A DNA stretch of 64,000 nucleotides from Antedon mediterranea (lineage: Eukaryota > Echinodermata > Crinoidea > Comatulida > Antedonidae), in NCBI RefSeq assembly GCF_964355755.1, contig NC_092678.1, forward strand, positions 19,440,922 to 19,504,921, in the 5' to 3' direction. Below, piece after piece: positions 36,397-47,553 of this stretch. A model generated the notes under the pieces. The model made no database searches and was not told where the DNA came from. It saw only the letters and a list, made by a program, of their open reading frames with translations. The translations under genes were made by a program, and so were the position numbers. Position 1 is the first letter of the stretch. Every line of letters begins with the position of its first letter.

Positions 36397-38585
36397 TTAC
36401 AGATACCATTCAAGATTCCTTAGATGATCCGACTGAATATTGCACATTCTGGCATTCACGCGATATCGAAATGGAATCACCTTGTTTAGACCCTTTGTGA
36501 AATCTCTCAGTTTAAATCCTTCTACACGACTTCCAGAAGAAGGAAAATTTTGAATATTTACTTTTTTACTCAACAAATCACTTTCCTCTGTGACCGCTGT
36601 AAATAATGCACGTAAATAACGTATAAACAACAAAGTGTTATCGAAGTATTCAAAGGGTTGTAATTGTTTTAAATCTTGGCGACCAGTGTCTGCTCTGGCG
36701 ACCTCTACAAGCTGATCTTCCCTCTCACGAGTAAGTTTACTGTGTATGTTTGCTTGCGGAATCAACTCTACCCAATGTACTGTTTGCATAATAAGGACTG
36801 CATGTTTATTAGTTTCACTTATAAGAGGACGCATTGATGAAAGAAGTTGCTTATCGCCAATGAAATCTGCAACATTCGATGCCATAATGCGGTCATGTTT
36901 TATCGCAACGTCTTTACATAGCGTAGTGCATTCCTTCACAAAACAGTTACAACTTATCTGATGCTTTTGGATAAAAGAGATCGCATTTCGAACAACACTA
37001 GTAATATAACTATGAAATAGATCGACAATGGAATCTTCATTTTTAAACATTTTACTTGCTCGGATGTAGTCCCATCCACGGAATGGAAAGTTATTAGGGG
37101 GAATGCAATATTCGAAGTTGCATGTCTCTGGTGTAAATTGCTGATTTACGTTGGCACCCCGGTTTTCTGGTAACGGAGGTCCCGTGAGTGTAGGATTATC
37201 AAATTGTAATTCACTACCGTCGCCGTCATGTTTCAAGAACAGACCGTCGATGAAATAATTAGCGGTCGACTCGCCATGTCTTTCTGGGACTGATTGGCAA
37301 TAAGAAGATGCACCTTGGGAGTTACTGGACCAAATGCCATTCCTAAACAAGTCTGTTCTCTGCCCAACCAAATCGATTGAATCAAATTTGCTGATATCGC
37401 ATTGTAGATCTAACCACTTCTTCCAAACTTCTTTTATTTTCGATAGATTCTCTTTATCAAGAAGCAATTCATCAGACGTTTTAGCCTTTAGAGAATCAGC
37501 ATCATGATCAACTAGCTCTTTCAGCATGGATATTAGAAAATGAAAATCGTTATCAGGTAGTTGAAGAGAGTACCAGATATTAGTAACGGTCTCTTCAATG
37601 GCATCTCTTGAACTTTGAGTTACCATCATGTAGATGAAGAGTACATTCCTTGCCATAACAAATGGACTGATGTCTGCCAATGTATACCTTACATTACCAG
37701 TGAAGTCTTTTGGGAGTGACGCTGTTGTGAGAAGTACATTTCGCAAGTCCCCAACATCAGCAAACAGCACACTGTAATCTTTTTCGAGTGATCTTCCTAA
37801 ATCTTCTGAGGAATTGGCCTCATTTACGTTCAACTTCAAAACATCAACTGCAATGGTACAGCCAAAGTATTCAGGGCAATATTCTATTGTAGGACCCGAC
37901 CAAAAACGGTACATATTAACAAGATCGAGGAACGCCTTTTGAACTTGTTTACACGATGGTTTGTGACGCTTCCAATCGGCCTTCTGGCATTTCTTACCGC
38001 AGTAGTCAATTTCACAACATGCAGCACACTATTAATAAAGATCAAAACAGTGATGGTTAGGGCAGTTTTCTCGGAAAGACGAGTGTCGATGTTAAATAAT
38101 ACGGCCTTACATTAGGCGACGACCCACCCCACTTACCACACATGTTCATACTCCCTAACATGCACCCCACGGTAAGCACTACACTATAGATATTCAGCTG
38201 TAGGCCTACTATATACTACTAATGCATGGTATTAAATTCAAATATAACAGGCCTGCACGACTTGTCTTACATACGTACTTTCCTTACATACGTACTTTCC
38301 TAATTAAGAGTGCAACGACTACCATTATGTCATCACTTTTTTAAAACAAATATAAAATAGAGTCTTATAATCCTATCATACCGATAAGCAGTTTGTCCTT
38401 TTCGAACATACGAAACACTGTCTGTTTCTATTCCACATATCACATTCAACCTGATGTCTCAGCTTATCTCGTTCCATACATTGTTGTCCACAATATTCAG
38501 CAATGTTGCATCTAGAGCACTTCGGAAAAGACTTTTCCGATATTTTGTCCTCACAACGCCAACATAATCCTTGTTCAACATCCAT
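36397..38585 (-). CDS. Double-MYND zinc-finger protein with DUF4470-like region, paralogue 1
   Basis: Exons 38585-38382 and 38028-36397 encode 611 residues. The first MYND finger (C8-x2-C11, C23-x2-C26, YC32-x3-C36, H44-x3-C48) lies in exon 1. The second (C57-x2-C60, C69-x2-C72, YC78-x3-C82, H90-x3-C94) is split by the 353-bp intron after residue 68. Residues about 120-185 (DVLKLNVNEA..., VLFADVGDLRNVLLT, VMARNVLFIYMM) resemble DUF4470, the N-terminal domain of the dynein-assembly factor DNAAF3, also found joined to MYND fingers. No SET motifs are seen, so this is not an SMYD methyltransferase. MYND fingers bind proline-rich peptides, so a protein-interaction role is likely, but no function can be assigned. 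This is the most diverged of the three paralogues. Confidence 0.88.
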
Positions 38586-38650
38586 GTTGATGTTATTCCC
38601 AAAACAGTAGGCCTACTGTATTATTTGAAGCTAGGCGTTTTAGTTGTAAA

Positions 38651-38716
38651 TTGGAAATTCCCAATTCTAATTGTAGACAAAAATATGACGACAGCAAGAA
38701 CGCCGCCTATCATTAC
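38651..38716 (-). promoter_or_regulatory. Promoter module of MYND paralogue 1: kappaB + CRE-like
   Basis: GGAAATTCCC at 38653-38662 (GGGAATTTCC on the gene strand) is a consensus NF-kappaB site, 68 bp before the ATG. TGACGACA at 38686 is a weakened CRE. CGCCGCCTATCATTA follows. The order and spacing match paralogues 2 and 3. Confidence 0.55.
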
Positions 38717-38759
38717 ACAAATAAGTAGGCTTGTACAACAGGCATTCCCACACAACAGA

Positions 38760-39340
38760 AAGTAGTTCTTTTTTTAAACGAAATATCGTTTTATTAACTT
38801 TTCTAACTTTTGTATTATTACATTGATTGGTTCTCATTGTGTCTGCTATTTTTAATGTATTGTATATTACATTTTTGGGAAAGAATTCCCAAATATCTGA
38901 TAATTTTCACTATTGGATCCTTTTTCAATAATTTTCTTCATTCGTCTGATTGTGTATTCAATCTGGTAATTCGTGTTTTTTTTAATTAAAGAATAAATAG
39001 TGAATGTAAATTAATATTTCGTTACTAACACCCTATTTTGAATAGCTCAAACAATATTTTATTTCTTCATACAGTATATGTATTTTCCACTAATAAATAA
39101 CAAATAATTTTTTTTTCTTAAATTAATTCGTCAAATTATAATATGGACAGTTATTTTATTGGACAATACGAATAAGAAATACTTTTTTCTTCATATATGT
39201 ATTTTCTACTAATAAATAAAATTTTTTTTTTCTTCAATTAATTCCTCAAATCGAACGCACACAGTTATATTATTATACAATACGAGCAAAATAAATAAAC
39301 TCGAAATTATAGGGCCTACATTGTTTAGTTTACTTTTTAA
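38760..39340. other. AT-rich spacer; no gene seen
   Basis: Low-complexity sequence with two related blocks around 39060-39120 and 39175-39235 (TATGTATTTTCCACTAATAA / TATGTATTTTCTACTAATAA), a short local duplication. Confidence 0.5.
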
Positions 39341-39356
39341 TGTTTATAATGTTTGA

Positions 39357-39752
39357 TTCCTCCTCGTCGATGATGTTGATGGTCACTCGGTTCTGTCCAA
39401 CCAGCTGTTTCGTTCAGCATCGGTGGGGTCGAGACTCCTCGTCGTCGATGATAATGTTGATGGTTACTCGGTTCTGTCCAACCAACTGCTTCGTTCAGCA
39501 TCGGTGGGGTTGAGACTCTCGTCGTTGATGATGTTGATGGTTACTCGGTTCTGTCCAACCAACTGCTTCGTTCAGCATCGGTAGGGTTGAGACTCCTCGT
39601 AGTCGATGATGTTGATGGTTACTCGGTTCTGTCCAACAAACTGCTCAGTCCAACATCGGTGGGATTGAGACTCGTCGTCGATGATGTTGATGGTTACTCG
39701 GTTCTGTCCAACCACCTGCTTAGTTCAACATCGGTGGGTTGAAACGCCTCAT
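39357..39752 (-). repeat. 79-bp tandem array downstream of MYND paralogue 2
   Basis: Five units of 77-80 bp containing GATGTTGATGGTTACTCGGT, TCTGTCCAACCAACTGCTTC and CATCGGTGGGGTTGAGACTC. A single unit-like copy lies at 44597-44645, also downstream of a MYND paralogue. There it is the 3' end of an open frame, so the array is probably an amplified piece of the 3' flank of the ancestral gene unit. Confidence 0.85.
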
Positions 39753-40457
39753 TGACAATTTACAACTCCACTCCCAAAGACTTGTAATAAGACTTTGTTA
39801 ATGTAGAGCATCGTGTGTATATGTTTGTCGGTCTCGTGAACGGATTGCCACCTTTAAGAAGGATAGTGAATGAATTCGCTTATGGTTATCCTTGGCAATT
39901 TGCCTAAATAAATAAAATAAAAAATAAAATAAATAAAATTGTCGATTGATTGATGTTGGCACATATTTGAAACTCCTTTCATCGATGGCCAATATGAAAT
40001 CTTGAATTGAGCATTTCTAATAGTTGAAGCTGGTTTTGCTGATAGGCCAAACCATACGAATATTATGTATATAAAGTGCATAATTGTAGCAGGATTGAGA
40101 ACAGCTATATCACACGTACCTGCAATGTGAATTGTATTATATCACAACTGCAACCGTAACCGTAACAGTGTTTATATCGAAAAACTATTTTCTAGTTGAT
40201 TCAATGGATGTATCTCATCATCTAAAATCTCCGTGCAAAATCGGGACATGAGTCTCTTGGAATTGTCGACGACGGTATGCCATCGGTACTGTAACCGACA
40301 GCAAAAGATATCAACGTACATCAATTATAATGTCCGTCTTAGTGTTTACATGGCAGAATTATATTAGAGTATTAATAGATTAGTGTCAGGATTATACTGT
40401 GATAAATGTACCTTTCATCACAACAGATTTCAACCTAAACCAATGGAGCCTCCAGGC

Positions 40458-42825
40458 CTAAAAATGCCATTCAAGATTTCTCGGATATGCAGGAAAGATG
40501 TTACATAATCTTGCGTTCTGTCGATATTGAAATGGAATCACCTTGTTCAACCCCTTTGTAAAGTCTCGCAATTTAAATCCTTCTAGTCGTTTGCCAGTAA
40601 ATGGAAACCTCGGGATAGGTTCAACAACACCATGGCCTAAGTTTGGATTTGTTGTACCTGAAAATACAGCTCGTAAAAAACGAATAAACAACGATGTGTT
40701 ATCGAAGTACTCACACTTAGGGTATAGTGGTAATTTCTTTAATTCTTGGCACCCAGTTTCAGACTTGACGACTTCTAAAACCTTATCTGCTCTCTCGCGA
40801 TTTACTGGATGGTTTACATCGGCTTCTGGAATAAACTGAATCCAACCATGAGTTTCCATCAAAAGAACTGCATGCTTATTGGTTGTACTCAGAAGAGGAC
40901 GCATTGACGAAAGAATTTGTTTAAACCCAGTTACGTCTACAGCTTGCGATGCTGTAATACGATCGTACGTTGGTTTAACATCCGATTGTTTGTATAATAA
41001 AGTGAAATCTCCAACACAACAGTTAAAGCTGATCCGATGTTTTTTAATAAAAGTGATGGCATTTCTAACAACATTGGTAATGTAACCATAGAATAACTTG
41101 ACAATTGAGTATTCGTTTTTAAACATCTTGCTTGCTTGAATGTAATCCCATCCACGAAAGGGATTATGGAGAGGAGGGATACAGTACTCGAAGTTACATG
41201 TTGCCATTGGTGAACGCTGGTGGTTTCTGCTCGACAGTAATGGAGGACCCGTAAGTGTTGGGTTTTCAAATCGTAAAGTACCTAAACAATCATCTTTTAA
41301 GAAAAGTCCGTCGTTATAATATTGGGAGACCGATTCCAGGTGCTTTTCCGGGACCTTTTGACAGTAATCGGAAGCATCCTGAGAGTTACTGCACCAAATA
41401 CCGTTACTAAACAAGGTTGTTCTCTGCCCAACCAAATCGATTGAATTGGATTTGCTGGTATCACATTCCAGTTCCAACCACTTCTTCCAGATTTCTTTTA
41501 TCTTTGATAGATCTTCTTGGTTAAGAAGCAATTCACCAGACGTTTTCACCTTCAAGGTATCAGCATCATGATCAACTAGCTCTTTCAGCATGGATACTAG
41601 AAAATCGAAATCTTCATCAGGTAGTTGAAGTGAGTACCAGATATTAGTAACTGTCTCTTCAATGTCATCTCTTGAATTCTGAGTTAACATCATGTAGATG
41701 AAGAGTACATTTCTTGCCATAACAAAAGGACTGATGGCTGCCAATGTATACATTACATTACCAGTGAAGTCTTTTGGAAGCGATGCTGTCGTAAGTAACA
41801 CGCTTCCTAAGTCACCTACATCGCCAAACAAAACGTTGTAATCTTTTGACAGTGGACTTGTGAAATATGTCGAAGCAATTACACTTGCTTCATTTATCTT
41901 TAGCTTCAGGACGTCAATTGCAATAGTGGGATTAAAGTACACATGAATATTTGTTAATCGGATCAATTTAGTCATCATCCGTTGACGATAATCAAAAACC
42001 ATCATTTGAAAATAGTCCTGTATTCGTTCGCATATTATTTTATGATGTTTCCAATCATCTCTTTGGCACTTCTGACTACAGTAAGACACTTCACGGCAAT
42101 GGGTACACTAAAACAAAAAATGAAAACATTCAGAAAAACATCCTCTGTTCTTGAAAAAAAACCTTCCACAAGTTCCTTCGAATCGCGGATGAAATGAATT
42201 GTCAGTTTAATACTTAAAATAATAGTATTAAAGATAGGAGTCAAAATAAAAGGAAAATATGCACATAAAAAAATACTGTATACACAAAGAGCTAGTTGAT
42301 CAGGATGCACACCCAAGTTTTATTTGTGTTGTCATGTTTTTCAGTAGGGAGATATTGATGATCCGATACCCATGGTAATTGTAGGCATACTCGTTATACT
42401 ACATCATTTATGGGAAACATTTTGTGACGTCGTAAACCTATACACGACCATCCAACCATGGCTAGAAAGGTCCAAGATATAGGCCTATGTCATTTTTACC
42501 TTCATCGAGAAATTACATGGGTCACGTGCTTAGGCCTATCACTACGGTACTACTGTACTATTGAAGTAGGCCTACTTTACATGGATGAGAGCTTTGTTTA
42601 ATATAAATTGGAACATGGGCCTACCCATTTGCAGTCAGTTTTTTTAACACAAGCAAAACACTGTCCGTTTCTATTCCACATATCACATTCAACCTGATGT
42701 CTCAGCTTATCTTGTTCCCTACATTGTTCTCCACAATATTCAGCAATGTTGCACCTAGAACACTTCTTTCCTTCTTCTGTCTTTTCATCCTCACAACGCC
42801 AACATAAGCCTTGTTCCACGTCCAT
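40458..42825 (-). CDS. Double-MYND zinc-finger protein with DUF4470-like region, paralogue 2
   Basis: Exons 42825-42625 and 42107-40458 encode 616 residues. Two complete MYND fingers are present, the second running from QCFACVKKTDCKW in exon 1 to CTHCREVSYCSQKC in exon 2. The DUF4470-like part reads DVLKLKINEA..., VLFGDVGDLGSVLLTTASLP, VMARNVLFIYMML. A long conserved C-terminal region contains PFRGWDYIQASKMF, SSMRPLLSTTNKHAVLLME, FDNTSLFIRFLRAVFS and GFKLRDFTKGLNKVIPF. It is much closer to paralogue 3 than to paralogue 1. The start at 42825 (MDVEQGLCWRCED) is chosen because all paralogues agree there; the frame is open further upstream. Confidence 0.88.
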
Positions 42826-42886
42826 TCTGTAACGCATTGAACGAAATTGTGTAATACAGGGTATGTGCTTTTTAAAAATAAAGTTT

Positions 42887-42950
42887 GGGAATTCCCAATT
42901 CAAGGCTATGACGTAAGCTTTGGTACGTTTACAACAGCGCCATCTATAAT
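42887..42950 (-). promoter_or_regulatory. Promoter module of MYND paralogue 2: kappaB + CRE-like + GCGCCATCTATAAT
   Basis: GGGAATTCCC (42887-42896, a palindromic kappaB site, 62 bp before the ATG), TGACGTAA (42909-42916) and GCGCCATCTATAAT (42937-42950) occur in the same order as in the other paralogues. Confidence 0.6.
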
Positions 42951-43029
42951 TAATTGAAATTGTAATAAGGCAATCTACAAAGACACGTTTTTTCAGGATT
43001 AATGACAACAAAATATAATTATGTTGTTA

Positions 43030-43067
43030 TCTTTACCACGACAGCATAGTTCTCGTCCGACATTCAT
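43030..43067 (-). pseudogene. Relic or alternative first exon of a fourth MYND gene
   Basis: On the minus strand ATG at 43067 opens MNVGRELCCRG, which lines up with MDVERGLCWRCE of the paralogues over about 11 codons. It then either continues to a stop after about 22 codons or meets a donor-like G|GTAAAG at 43037-43036. The CRE site of its promoter block lies 88 bp upstream, the same spacing as in paralogue 2 (84 bp). It is either a decayed duplicate or an alternative first exon for paralogue 2 that would skip the first finger. Confidence 0.5.
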
Positions 43068-43126
43068 GATATTGTAATTCTGTCCAAATCAGCATCGTTT
43101 TATGTTAGGCGTAATTGTAGTAAATA

Positions 43127-43192
43127 AGCAATTCCCAATTCTAATTTTAAACTATGACGTCAATAGAGGTTAACAATAGTGCCACCAATATC
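43127..43192 (-). promoter_or_regulatory. Fourth copy of the MYND promoter module
   Basis: GCAATTCCCAATTCTAATTT, then a perfect CRE TGACGTCA (43155-43162), TTAACAATAG and GTGCCACCAATATC. It is homologous to the modules before paralogues 1-3. The kappaB site is weakened (GCAATTCCC), and only the short relic exon follows. Confidence 0.55.
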
Positions 43193-43499
43193 AAGATACA
43201 CATTTGTAGGCTTAATACAACAGTCGTTCCGATACATCATAAGTTAGTTATTTGTTTCAAGTCTCTTGATAAATATAATTTACTAGTATAATAGGCTTTC
43301 CTATCCTTTTCTAATTCTAAAACAAAAAAAGTCGTACTTGCATTAGTATTTTTTCTCTCTTTTATTTCATTTTAACTTTAGTTTATAGTATAAAAGTAGT
43401 AGAAATATAAACTCCCTATACTTTGAAGTATAAAAAAATAAAATGATAATAATCTTTATTGTCTTTCTTTCTTGTTTGTTCTTTTTCACATACATAAAA

Positions 43500-44300
43500 T
43501 CAGAACTAAAGACAAAAGACCAAAAAAAAGCTTTCGCTTATCGAGTTTTGGCCTTTTAAAATAAATAAAACTTAAACTAGAACGTATATCAATTCTGAGA
43601 AAGAAAAATCTGAAGAAAATTAATTACATAAATGAAAATTAATAACTCACTGGCATTATCAATATGAATATGAAATAAGTAATAGAAGAGTATTATACAC
43701 ACTTTTTTTTTTTAAATAGAAAAAACTAAGCATAATATAAGGTTATTAAATGTTCTTTGTTGACTTTGATGGCAAATTGTGCTCTAAATGAAATTGACTT
43801 AATATTTACTGGGTGTTTATTCCAGAGTTTGGGAACTTGGTATGTTATATTGGTTTGAGATAGAGTCGTAAATTAATAACTCACTGGCATTATCAATATG
43901 AATATGAAATAAGTAATAGAAGAGTATTATACACATTTTTTTTTTTAAATAGAAAAAACTAAGCATCATATAAGGTTATTAAATGTTCTTTGTTGACTTT
44001 GATGGCAAATTGTGTTCTAAATGAAATTGACTTAATATTTACTGGGAGTTTATTCCAGAGTTTGGGAACTTGGTATGTTATATTGGTTTGAGATAGAGTC
44101 GTACGGCAAAAGGGGATCGAGAGATTAAACGGGTCATTAAATCGGGTGTTACATGGATGGTTTACATAGTTAAAGTATAGTATAATATGATGAGGTAATC
44201 TAGAATAAAATAAATCGGAAATAAATTTAAGCACATGCAACTCATACAATTTAAAAACATCTAAAATCAACAATTGCTTAAACAAATGTGCTTATGCCTA
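43500..44300 (-). mobile_element. LINE 3' fragment with internal 232-bp tandem duplication
   Basis: A minus-strand frame ending at 43959 contains NITYQVPKLWNKLPVNIKSI and further RT C-terminal sequence, the same domain end as the LINE at 2.4-3.3 kb but diverged. The segment 43638-43869 is repeated almost exactly at 43870-44102, so the terminal part of the ORF and 3' UTR occurs twice. Confidence 0.75.
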
Positions 44301-44588
44301 CATTTACATTTAAAAAATATAATTCATTATTTTTTTTTTTCACATTAGCTCATCTTTTATTTATATTAAAATCAAATTTATTTGTTATTAATATCTAAGC
44401 TCAAAATCGGACAACTTTCAAACCAATTATTTTTTCCCGAAGAATAATATTTGATGTATATTATATATACATTAAGTAAACAATGAAATATACATACATT
44501 AGCATTTTTGCTTTTTTTTCTAATCAAATGACAATATCTAGCTGATATACTTTAGTTAATTAACAGTTCATTGATAATTAGGCATACA

Positions 44589-44837
44589 CTACTGTTCTGT
44601 CGCATCAATGCTTAGTTCACCATCAGTTGGGGTTTGAGACACTCGGCAAAGATGTGTTCTGGCAGATGGCTTCGCTTCTCTAATGTAACCACAGTGCAAC
44701 TTATTCGCAAAACGAGATCGATTGCAATCATAATGACAGGCATAGCGCATCAACAGCGACCGCTGTCCGCCCGCAAGAAGACTTTCCTTATAATTATTGA
44801 ACCTCAGTGCAACCAATGTTATACGAGATCGACGCAT
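44589..44837 (-). other. Open frame downstream of MYND paralogue 3, unassigned
   Basis: Eighty-two codons, arginine- and cysteine-containing, including ACHYDCNRSRFANKLHCGYI and ending VSQTPTDGELSIDATEQ. The end corresponds to the unit of the 79-bp array downstream of paralogue 2 (SLNPTDAERSSWLDRTE in the same frame). No known domain was recognised. It could be an exon of an unrecognised gene, a decayed coding remnant carried along with the MYND duplication, or chance. Confidence 0.35.
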
Positions 44838-44973
44838 GATTCTCCTTCTTCTTGAACGACAGCAAAGTACACAATGTTAAGACTATTTTAATGAATATAA
44901 AGTTAAATACAAGCCTACTATATGTACTAAAATGTATGTGTCTAAACCCAAAAGGAGTCGTCGTGATTCCCTA

Positions 44974-47403
44974 CTACAAATGCCATTCGAGATTCCTCTG
45001 ATATCCATCGATTATGTTACATAATCTTGCGTTCTGGCGATATTTAAATGGAATCACTTTGTTCAGACCCTTTGTAAAGTCTCGCAATTTGAATCCTGCT
45101 AGACATCTGCTAGGAACTGGAACATTTGGGATTGGCTCACCAACACATAGTTGTACAATTGGATATGTTGTTGCTGAAAATACAGCTCGTAAAAAACGAA
45201 TAAACAACGAAGTGTTATCGAAGTAATCATCTTTGGAGTATAGTTGTAATTTATTTAATTCTTGACACCCAGTTTCAGACCTGACTACTTCTAAAATCTG
45301 ATATGCTCTCTCACGATTTACTGGATGGTATACATCGGCTTCTGGAATAAACTGAAACCAACCATGAGTTTCCATCAGAAGAACTGCATGCTTATTGGTT
45401 GTACTCAGAAGAGGACGCATTGACGAAAGAAGTTGTTTAAACCCAACTACGTCTACAGCTTGCGATGCTGCAATACGATCGTACTTTGGTTTAACATCCG
45501 ATTCTTTGTACAATAAAGTGAAATCTCCAACGCAACAGTTAAAGCTGATCTGATGTCTTTTAATAAAAGAGACGGCATTTCTAACGACACTGGTAATGTA
45601 ACCATGAAATAGTTTGACTATCGAATCTTCGTTTTTAAACATCTTGCTTGCTCGAATGTAATCCCATCCACGAAATGGAATATCGAGAGGAGGGATACAA
45701 TACTCGAGGTTACCTGCCCTTGTTGAAATTTGCTGACACTTGCATGAAAGTAATGGAGGTCCCGTAAGTGTTGGGTTATCAAATCGTAAACTAGTTTCAC
45801 AGTCACCTTTTAAGAAAAGTCCGTTGACAAAATATGTAGCGGTCGACTCGCCATGTCTTTCTGGAACCAATTGGCAGTAACCGGAAGCAAGCTCAGAGTT
45901 ACTGGACCAGATACCGTTCCTAAACAAGTTTGTTCTCTGCCCAACCAAATCGATGGAATTCCATTTGCCGGTGTCGCATTCTAATTCCAACCACTTACTC
46001 CAAACCTCTTTTATCTTTGATAGATTATCTTGGTTAAGAAGCAATTCACCAGACGTTTTAGACTTTAGAGTATCAACATCATAAACAGCTAGCTCTTTCA
46101 GCATGGATACAAGAAAATGGAAATCCTCGTCAGGAAGTTGAAGTGAGTACCAGATATTAGTAACTGTCTCTTCAATGGCATCTCTTGAACTCTGTGTCAC
46201 CATCATGTAGATGAAGAGTACATTTCTTGCCATAACAAAAGGACTGATGTCTGCCAATTTATACCTTACATTACCGGTGAAGTCTTTTGGAAGCGATGCT
46301 GTCGTAAGTAACATGCTTCCTAAGTCACCTACATCACCAAATAAAACGTTGTAATCTCTTCTTGCTAGTGGTCCTTCGGCATCTATCGAAGACACACGTT
46401 TGGCCTCATTTAAGTTTAGCTTCAAAACATAAACTGCAATAGTTTGACTAAAGTAGCTGTGGATTTTTGTTTGTCGGCGCCAACTTAACATTCGAAGACT
46501 GTAATTTGTAACTATGTTGTAAAAAGCTTTTCGAATTTCTAAACATGATGATTTATGACGTTTTCGATCAGCCCTTTGACAATCCACACCACAGTAAGCC
46601 ACTTCACGACAGGCAGAACACTGTATTGAAAAAAAAGGTTTAGGGTTAGGCTGATTTTACTTACTTATTGTCTATTAGTAAGGAATGTTGTTTTTTAGAT
46701 TTTTATTTTGGTAGTAGGCCTACTGTACGTTCTTAACTAGCGGCGCTTAATATACAGTCAGGGGAAAAATGGCAAAATTGTTCCTACAGTCTAGGGATTT
46801 TTATCAGATAATCTATATTGTTTTGACTACTCTTGTAACATGACCACAGTGCTGATTTTTACCATTTTCCTTTAACTGCAATTATAATGTATACGGCATT
46901 CTAGACCAGTAACCCACAACATAGTCCTATTCTATATTAATGATGTAGAAATAAGGAGGAAGTAATATTTTATTATATACATCCGTCGTAGTGATAATTC
47001 ACTAGACATTTGTGACGTCGTACAGAAAACCTGCCAAACATGTGATCCGCGAAGGAAGCTGCTTTGTCGATTCTTGATGTGGGAATTCTGGGATATCTTA
47101 TTTTATGCATCGTCTGCAACGCATATTTGTGGGGAGATTATCTAAAATAATGAGCTAGTTCTGCATAATAATTCAGTAATCAATTGAAACATAGCCTACC
47201 CATATGCATACAGTTTCATTACCACACGCAGAACACTGCTTTCTATTTCTATTCCACATATCACATTCAACCTGATGTCTCAGCTTATCTCGTTCCCTAC
47301 AATGTTCTCCACAATATTCAGCAATGTTACACCTAGAACACTTCTTTCCCTTGTCCGACTTTTTATCCTCACAACGCCAACATAAGCCTCGTTCCACGTC
47401 CAT
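44974..47403 (-). CDS. Double-MYND zinc-finger protein with DUF4470-like region, paralogue 3
   Basis: Exons 47403-47200 and 46620-44974 encode 616 residues. The layout is identical to paralogues 1 and 2. The first finger is in exon 1 (CWRCEDKKSDKGKKCSRC...YCGEHC). The second is split by a 579-bp phase-0 intron (QCSACGNETVCIW | CSACREVAYCGVDC). Then come the DUF4470-like segment (VLFGDVGDLGSMLLTTASLP) and the conserved C-terminal region ending NARLCNIIDGYQRNLEWHL. All zinc ligands are present in both fingers. There are no frameshifts, so the gene looks active. Its promoter faces that of RIBC2, with about 1.5 kb between the two ATGs. Confidence 0.88.
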
Positions 47404-47502
47404 TCTGTAACGGCATTGAACGAAATGGAGGAAAAGGAAGCAGCCTATAATAATAGTAATTACCCACACACGATAAGTTTCAAGTTTACCGTATGTAAAT
47501 GT

Positions 47503-47553
47503 GGGAATTTCCAATAGTTATGACGTTATGGTATTAACAGCGCCATCTATAAT
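47503..47553 (-). promoter_or_regulatory. Promoter module of MYND paralogue 3: kappaB + CRE-like + GCGCCATCTATAAT
   Basis: GGGAATTTCC (47503-47512, 100 bp before the ATG), TGACGTTA (47521-47528) and GCGCCATCTATAAT (47540-47553) form the most compact version of the shared module. Confidence 0.6.

Follow-up and report, generated by a model that had tools for sequence, protein, structure and literature searches.

Do the short words common to the promoters of three tandem genes mark a regulatory unit held by selection, or are they leftovers of gene duplication? The question is raised by genes A, B and C (C9A, C9B and C9C) in a window of 64,000 nucleotides of the Antedon mediterranea genome (C9:19440922-19504921, within 354 Mb). 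All three lie on the minus strand. Their first exon is coding and carries a MYND finger (MDVE...), and a second such finger is found together with a DUF4470 domain in the long exon 2; the matches to zf-MYND (PF01753, E 3e-11) and DUF4470 (PF14737, E 6e-13) are both above the Pfam gathering cut-offs. A sequence-only reading had placed a kappaB site 60-100 bp before each ATG, next to a site resembling a cAMP response element (CRE), and had proposed selection on a Rel/ATF-type enhancer. The answer that we favour, with a probability of about 0.62, is that the MYND/DUF4470 genes have a constrained proximal promoter of Rel and ATF/basic leucine zipper (bZIP) type, which is probably immune-inducible. 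The features, numbered from the first letter of the window, are as follows.

36397..38028, minus strand: gene A, second-exon open reading frame with second MYND finger and DUF4470, 543 amino acids
38406..38585, minus strand: gene A, first exon, coding, MYND finger; ATG at 38585
38653..38662, minus strand: gene A, kappaB site, GGGAATTTCC on the gene strand and GGAAATTCCC on the plus strand; starts at -77 from the ATG
38686..38693, unstranded: gene A, degenerate CRE-like word TGACGACA, with the GTCA half retained on the gene strand
40458..42107, minus strand: gene B, second-exon open reading frame with MYND finger and DUF4470, 549 amino acids
42649..42825, minus strand: gene B, first exon, coding, MYND finger; ATG at 42825
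42887..42896, unstranded: gene B, palindromic kappaB site GGGAATTCCC; starts at -71 from the ATG
42909..42916, unstranded: gene B, CRE-like site TGACGTAA
42937..42950, unstranded: gene B, GCGCCATCTATAAT (TATAGATGGCGC on the gene strand), exact; conserved in B and C only
43129..43193, minus strand: decayed second module upstream of gene B, with TGACGTCA at 43155-43162, CAATTCCCAATTC at about 43129 and the kappaB site decayed to GGGAATTGC
44974..46623, minus strand: gene C, second exon with MYND finger and DUF4470
47224..47403, minus strand: gene C, first exon, coding, MYND finger; ATG at 47403
47503..47512, plus strand: gene C, kappaB site, GGGAATTTCC on the plus strand and GGAAATTCCC on the gene strand; -109 from the ATG
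47521..47528, unstranded: gene C, CRE-like site TGACGTTA
47540..47553, unstranded: gene C, GCGCCATCTATAAT, exact

Each of the window's kappaB words (GGGAATTTCC, GGGAATTCCC and GGAAATTCCC) either fits GGGRNNYYCC or is a measured kappaB site, and all three start roughly where they had been placed. The CRE-like site beside them is exact in B and C; gene A has TGACGACA only. The sequence between the words, described earlier as diverged, is so only in part: the B and C promoters align at 73% over 70 bp, and positions -193 to -39 of gene A align at 69.5% over 164 bp with a distal copy upstream of gene B. This copy, the decayed module, was overlooked in the sequence-only reading; it is homologous to the gene A promoter, and the proximal module of B is not the one that aligns with A. 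The presence of a decayed promoter copy at window positions 43099-43200 suggests that a gene copy was lost or rearranged between B and C.

Because the genes are tandem copies, and B and C separated recently (synonymous divergence, dS, 0.34; gene A is older, with dS of about 1), words common to the three could simply be inherited, and the deciding test therefore lies in paralogues outside the window. The genome holds 11 MYND/DUF4470 genes or relics and one further DUF4470 locus on C7. Apart from those in the window, they form two clusters of four genes each, at C3:26.056-26.077 Mb and C11:6.635-6.649 Mb, with about 43% (41-47%) amino-acid identity to the window genes and dS values from 1.7 to infinite, that is, at or near synonymous saturation. 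At this distance the kappaB core GGAAATTCC is found before the ATG of C3c (-114), C3d (-123), C11a (-92), C11b (-85) and C11d (-128, with a second at -189), and the paralogues often have it in the form TGGAAATTCC[CA]. In an unbiased count GGAAATTCC was the top 9-mer, present in 7 of 11 promoters (the five outside the window plus A and C) and in all three clusters; no GC-containing 9-mer reached more than 3 of the 11 in dinucleotide shuffles. The 119 kb of cluster DNA contain eight occurrences, all of them inside the 11 promoter stretches of 200 bp and none elsewhere, against 0.03 expected from a background of 1.5e-5 per bp (either strand, unselected DNA of the genome). For the single fully independent comparison, that of the C9 lineage with the C3/C11 lineage, the chance of meeting GGAAATTCC within 70 bp is about 1e-3. 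Of the nine copies whose second exon is full-length, eight have the site intact (among them C3c, which has a single stop), and it is gone from both broken copies, C3b, which has stops, and C11c, which is fragmented. Conservation of the kappaB words above background, which the sequence-only reading had named as a check, is thus found among paralogues. Selection on the kappaB site is supported by its recurrence in clusters that diverged long ago and lie on two further chromosomes; the enhancer as first drawn loses GCGCCATCTATAAT as a member, and gene A lacks its exact CRE.

In the 45 bp that precede the kappaB site on the gene strand, GTCA was the commonest 4-mer, present in seven of eight promoters; shuffled sequences reached a maximum of six in 14 of 2,000 trials and never seven. 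Exact ACGTCA is present in only three of the eight (B, C and C11a), and the spacing between the two sites varies from about 5 to 30 bp. The unit under constraint is therefore GTCA/CRE with kappaB, without GCGCCATCTATAAT.

The exact copies of GCGCCATCTATAAT before B and C are where they had been reported, but as a third conserved element the word did not hold up. With as many as three mismatches allowed, it was found neither in gene A, which has merely a diverged equivalent, nor in the C3 and C11 paralogues, save for one three-mismatch word in C3d; as none of the eight paralogues on the other chromosomes has it, it was rejected as part of the module. Its presence in both B and C is probably due to recent descent. 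Elsewhere in the genome, TATAGATGGCGCTGTT occurs seven times, and AGATGGCGCTGTT 58 times against three for its reverse, a ratio inflated by the one additional CpG in the reversed control; among the places listed for AGATGGCGCTGTT, overlap with a CRE-kappaB pair is seen only at genes B and C. AGATGGCGCTGTT resembles the CTCF core, and its occurrences are clustered on one strand, as at C9:19946306-20020772 (five in 75 kb, about 0.45 Mb from the window), C2:37737079-37737604 and C4:5619309-5619441.

The pair itself extends beyond the family. Genome-wide, ACGTCA followed after 4-30 nucleotides by GGAAATTCC occurs 18 times against four for the reversed control, and with GGGAATTCCC as the second word 15 times against none, giving 33 CRE-then-kappaB pairs against four reversed patterns; the reversed control lacks the CpG, and some pairs are tandem duplicates of each other, which lowers the number of independent events. 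The other polarity, ACGTCA...GGAATTTCC, gave 27 matches, about half of them from two repeat families, against 35 for a reversed control that was repeat-laden too; we claim no enrichment for it, and none is left when repeats are excluded. Extra kappaB sites clustering homotypically around the pairs were looked for and not seen. A ACGTCATTCCAGAAAGGGGAATTCCC pair is present in seven nearly identical copies in two groups (C4:26.359-26.413 Mb and C4:35.501-35.661 Mb), and no gene could be recognised less than 2.4 kb from the single copy that was read; the palindromic-pair loci at C4:26.36 Mb and C4:6.149 Mb have no recognisable gene within 2 kb.

Several pairs of the enriched polarity lie near genes of innate-immune type: the sole MLKL_N gene in the genome, with the pair about 0.6 kb upstream; a Mab-21-type nucleotidyltransferase within a cluster of such genes; and a TRIM gene (RING plus B-box). 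The same polarity precedes a methyltransferase-like tandem pair, and there the distance from module to ATG, about 130 bp, resembles that in the MYND genes. The tandem genes at C8:24.858-24.871 Mb (L035, L036) encode proteins of about 300 amino acids that contain a SIGGGPGTD motif and match Methyltransf_34 weakly, below the cut-off; two of the three have a CRE-kappaB pair near the ATG. A DED plus RIG-I-like helicase gene and a STAND NTPase stand near ACGTCA...GGAATTTCC pairs. None of these domains was found at 19 control loci scanned alike, which were mostly repeat copies, together with TATAGATGGCGC matches. A BIR match near L044 (E 0.037) fell below the Pfam cut-off and was not counted.

The Rel/ATF and immune reading is supported indirectly, by the association with the GTCA/CRE half-site and by the innate-immune genes found near pairs elsewhere; these neighbours support an immune programme without proving it, and an immune link of the MYND/DUF4470 family is plausible. 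A wider proposal can be made only tentatively, and we hold it to be rather doubtful: the CRE-kappaB pair might mark a genome-wide innate-immune set (RIG-I-like, Mab-21-type, TRIM, MLKL and STAND genes), of which the MYND/DUF4470 genes and the methyltransferase-like family at C8:24.86 Mb would be unrecognised, infection-induced effectors.

Several observations weigh against a constrained, immune-inducible promoter. Within the family, the gene A word TGACGACA is not a TGACGT site, the exact CRE having been lost; the intact copy C3a has no kappaB core; and the conservation is among paralogues of one genome. At the other loci, the Mab-21 protein has MID51, not cGAS, as its nearest solved relative, the RIG-I-like and STAND genes rest on the polarity that is not enriched without repeats, and for several modules the distance to the ATG is 0.2-0.75 kb rather than about 100 bp. 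The count itself, immune-type genes at some 5-6 of the 25 independent loci and at none of the 19 controls, is a small sample set against controls that are mostly repeat copies, and the immune labels were assigned after the matches had been seen.

Under the favoured reading, the module is a proximal promoter that lies 70-130 bp ahead of the ATG and joins a kappaB site built on the GGAAATTCC core to a GTCA half-site, which on the gene strand is 5-40 bp further upstream. An ancestral gene would have carried it before the family spread to three chromosomes, and most intact copies would have kept it through purifying selection. Infection or stress signalling would release a Rel-family protein; a Rel dimer would occupy the kappaB site, with a bZIP factor of the ATF2/Jun/CREB type on the adjoining CRE-type site. 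The genome has four loci with a Rel homology domain (RHD) above the Pfam cut-off, NF-kappaB and NFAT types counted together. The two bound factors would activate the MYND/DUF4470 genes and, with them, nucleic-acid sensor and cell-death genes that bear the pair, with inducible transcription presumably beginning just downstream of the sites, as in E-selectin.

Among the alternatives, the one that survives best, though we consider it unlikely, accepts the constraint and changes the reader: the element could serve NFAT/NFAT5, Schnurri/HIVEP zinc fingers or a Dorsal-like developmental Rel protein, or a constitutive or developmental programme. The near-palindromic GGAAATTCC can bind other factors, the bZIP half-site GTCA is not factor-specific, and the MYND/DUF4470 family has no known function. 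Against this stand the pairs near MLKL, TRIM, Mab-21, RIG-I-like and STAND genes, and the identity of the sites with well-measured p50/RelA sites: GGGAAATTCC, from IFN-beta, and TGGAAATTCC, site 1 of NFKBIA, are among the sequences used for binding measurements with the human p50/RelA dimer (PMC9440430).

Far less probable, and already disfavoured, is common descent without constraint, by which tandem duplication would have copied the promoter and the words would be what is left. The low B-C divergence and the 164-bp alignment of the gene A promoter with the distal B copy fit this account, and it explains GCGCCATCTATAAT in B and C best. It does not predict that GGAAATTCC should keep its place between C9 and the C3/C11 clusters despite a dS at or near saturation, be the top 9-mer with no occurrence in the rest of the 119 kb, or vanish from both broken copies. 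Dispersal by a transposable element inserting near genes can be dismissed as highly improbable: repeats with kappaB and CRE words do exist here, one of them in at least 12 copies with ACGTCATGCC...GGTCACAAAATGGAATTTCC, but that repeat has the other polarity and a different spacer, paralogue promoters have only short words in common, and 321 bp of the B promoter, used as a DNA query, matched only themselves; this promoter is no dispersed repeat.

A dispersed repeat (L058-L060, L062-L065, L067, L069-L072) combines, as ACGTCATGCC...AAGGTCACAAAATGGAATTTCC, a CRE and a half-site of nuclear-receptor type with a kappaB word. Several of its copies carry another kappaB word at a distance of about 118 bp, and the repeat could be spreading enhancer-like sequence. 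Inside the window, inspection by eye revealed units of about 70 bp in tandem repeat (TCGATGATGTTGATGGTTACTCGGTTCTGTCCAACCA...) between genes A and B (39360-39750) and, upstream of gene B (43640-44105), a stretch of about 200 bp (AATTAATAACTCACTGGCATTATCAATATGAAT...) that is present in two nearly identical direct copies. An AlphaFold model of exon 2 of the three window proteins was unusable (predicted local distance difference test score, pLDDT, 29). In the library searched, we found no paper naming DUF4470 and MYND together and no challenge study that mentions these genes; MYND/DUF4470 proteins have no described function.

Judged from the DNA, then, the kappaB-CRE promoter of this small gene family is real and constrained; the design is a known one and the case is new. 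Sequence alone would thereby give these genes, which have no known function, a role in immunity or the stress response that can be tested. The short and specific rule that comes with it, GTCA/CRE and then GGAAATTCC no more than about 40 bp on, may point to more of the animal's innate-immune genes. The simplest point of comparison is NFKBIA kappaB site 1, TGGAAATTCC, whose core is identical to that before C9C, C3c, C3d, C11a, C11b and C11d; it differs in being a single site of another gene, for which no neighbouring CRE is claimed. In the IFN-beta enhancer the kappaB site is paired with an ATF2/Jun site, PRDIV, much as the MYND promoters pair theirs with an ATF-type site. The IFN-beta PRDII site, GGGAAATTCC, has the same kappaB core (PMC9440430). 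The IFN-beta enhancer has IRF sites in between as well; none was noticed in the MYND promoters, where such sites were not systematically searched for. In the human E-selectin gene (SELE), kappaB sites and one for ATF2/c-Jun, TGACATCATTG, lie less than 150 bp from the start, and the ATF2 site is required for full inflammatory induction (PMC4973847). Both site types thus lie at short range in a proximal promoter there, as in the MYND genes; E-selectin differs in having three kappaB sites where the MYND genes have one, in being a vertebrate endothelial adhesion gene and in having its promoter function shown by experiment. The Rel-ATF design known from E-selectin and IFN-beta would here be preserved across old duplications in an animal gene family.

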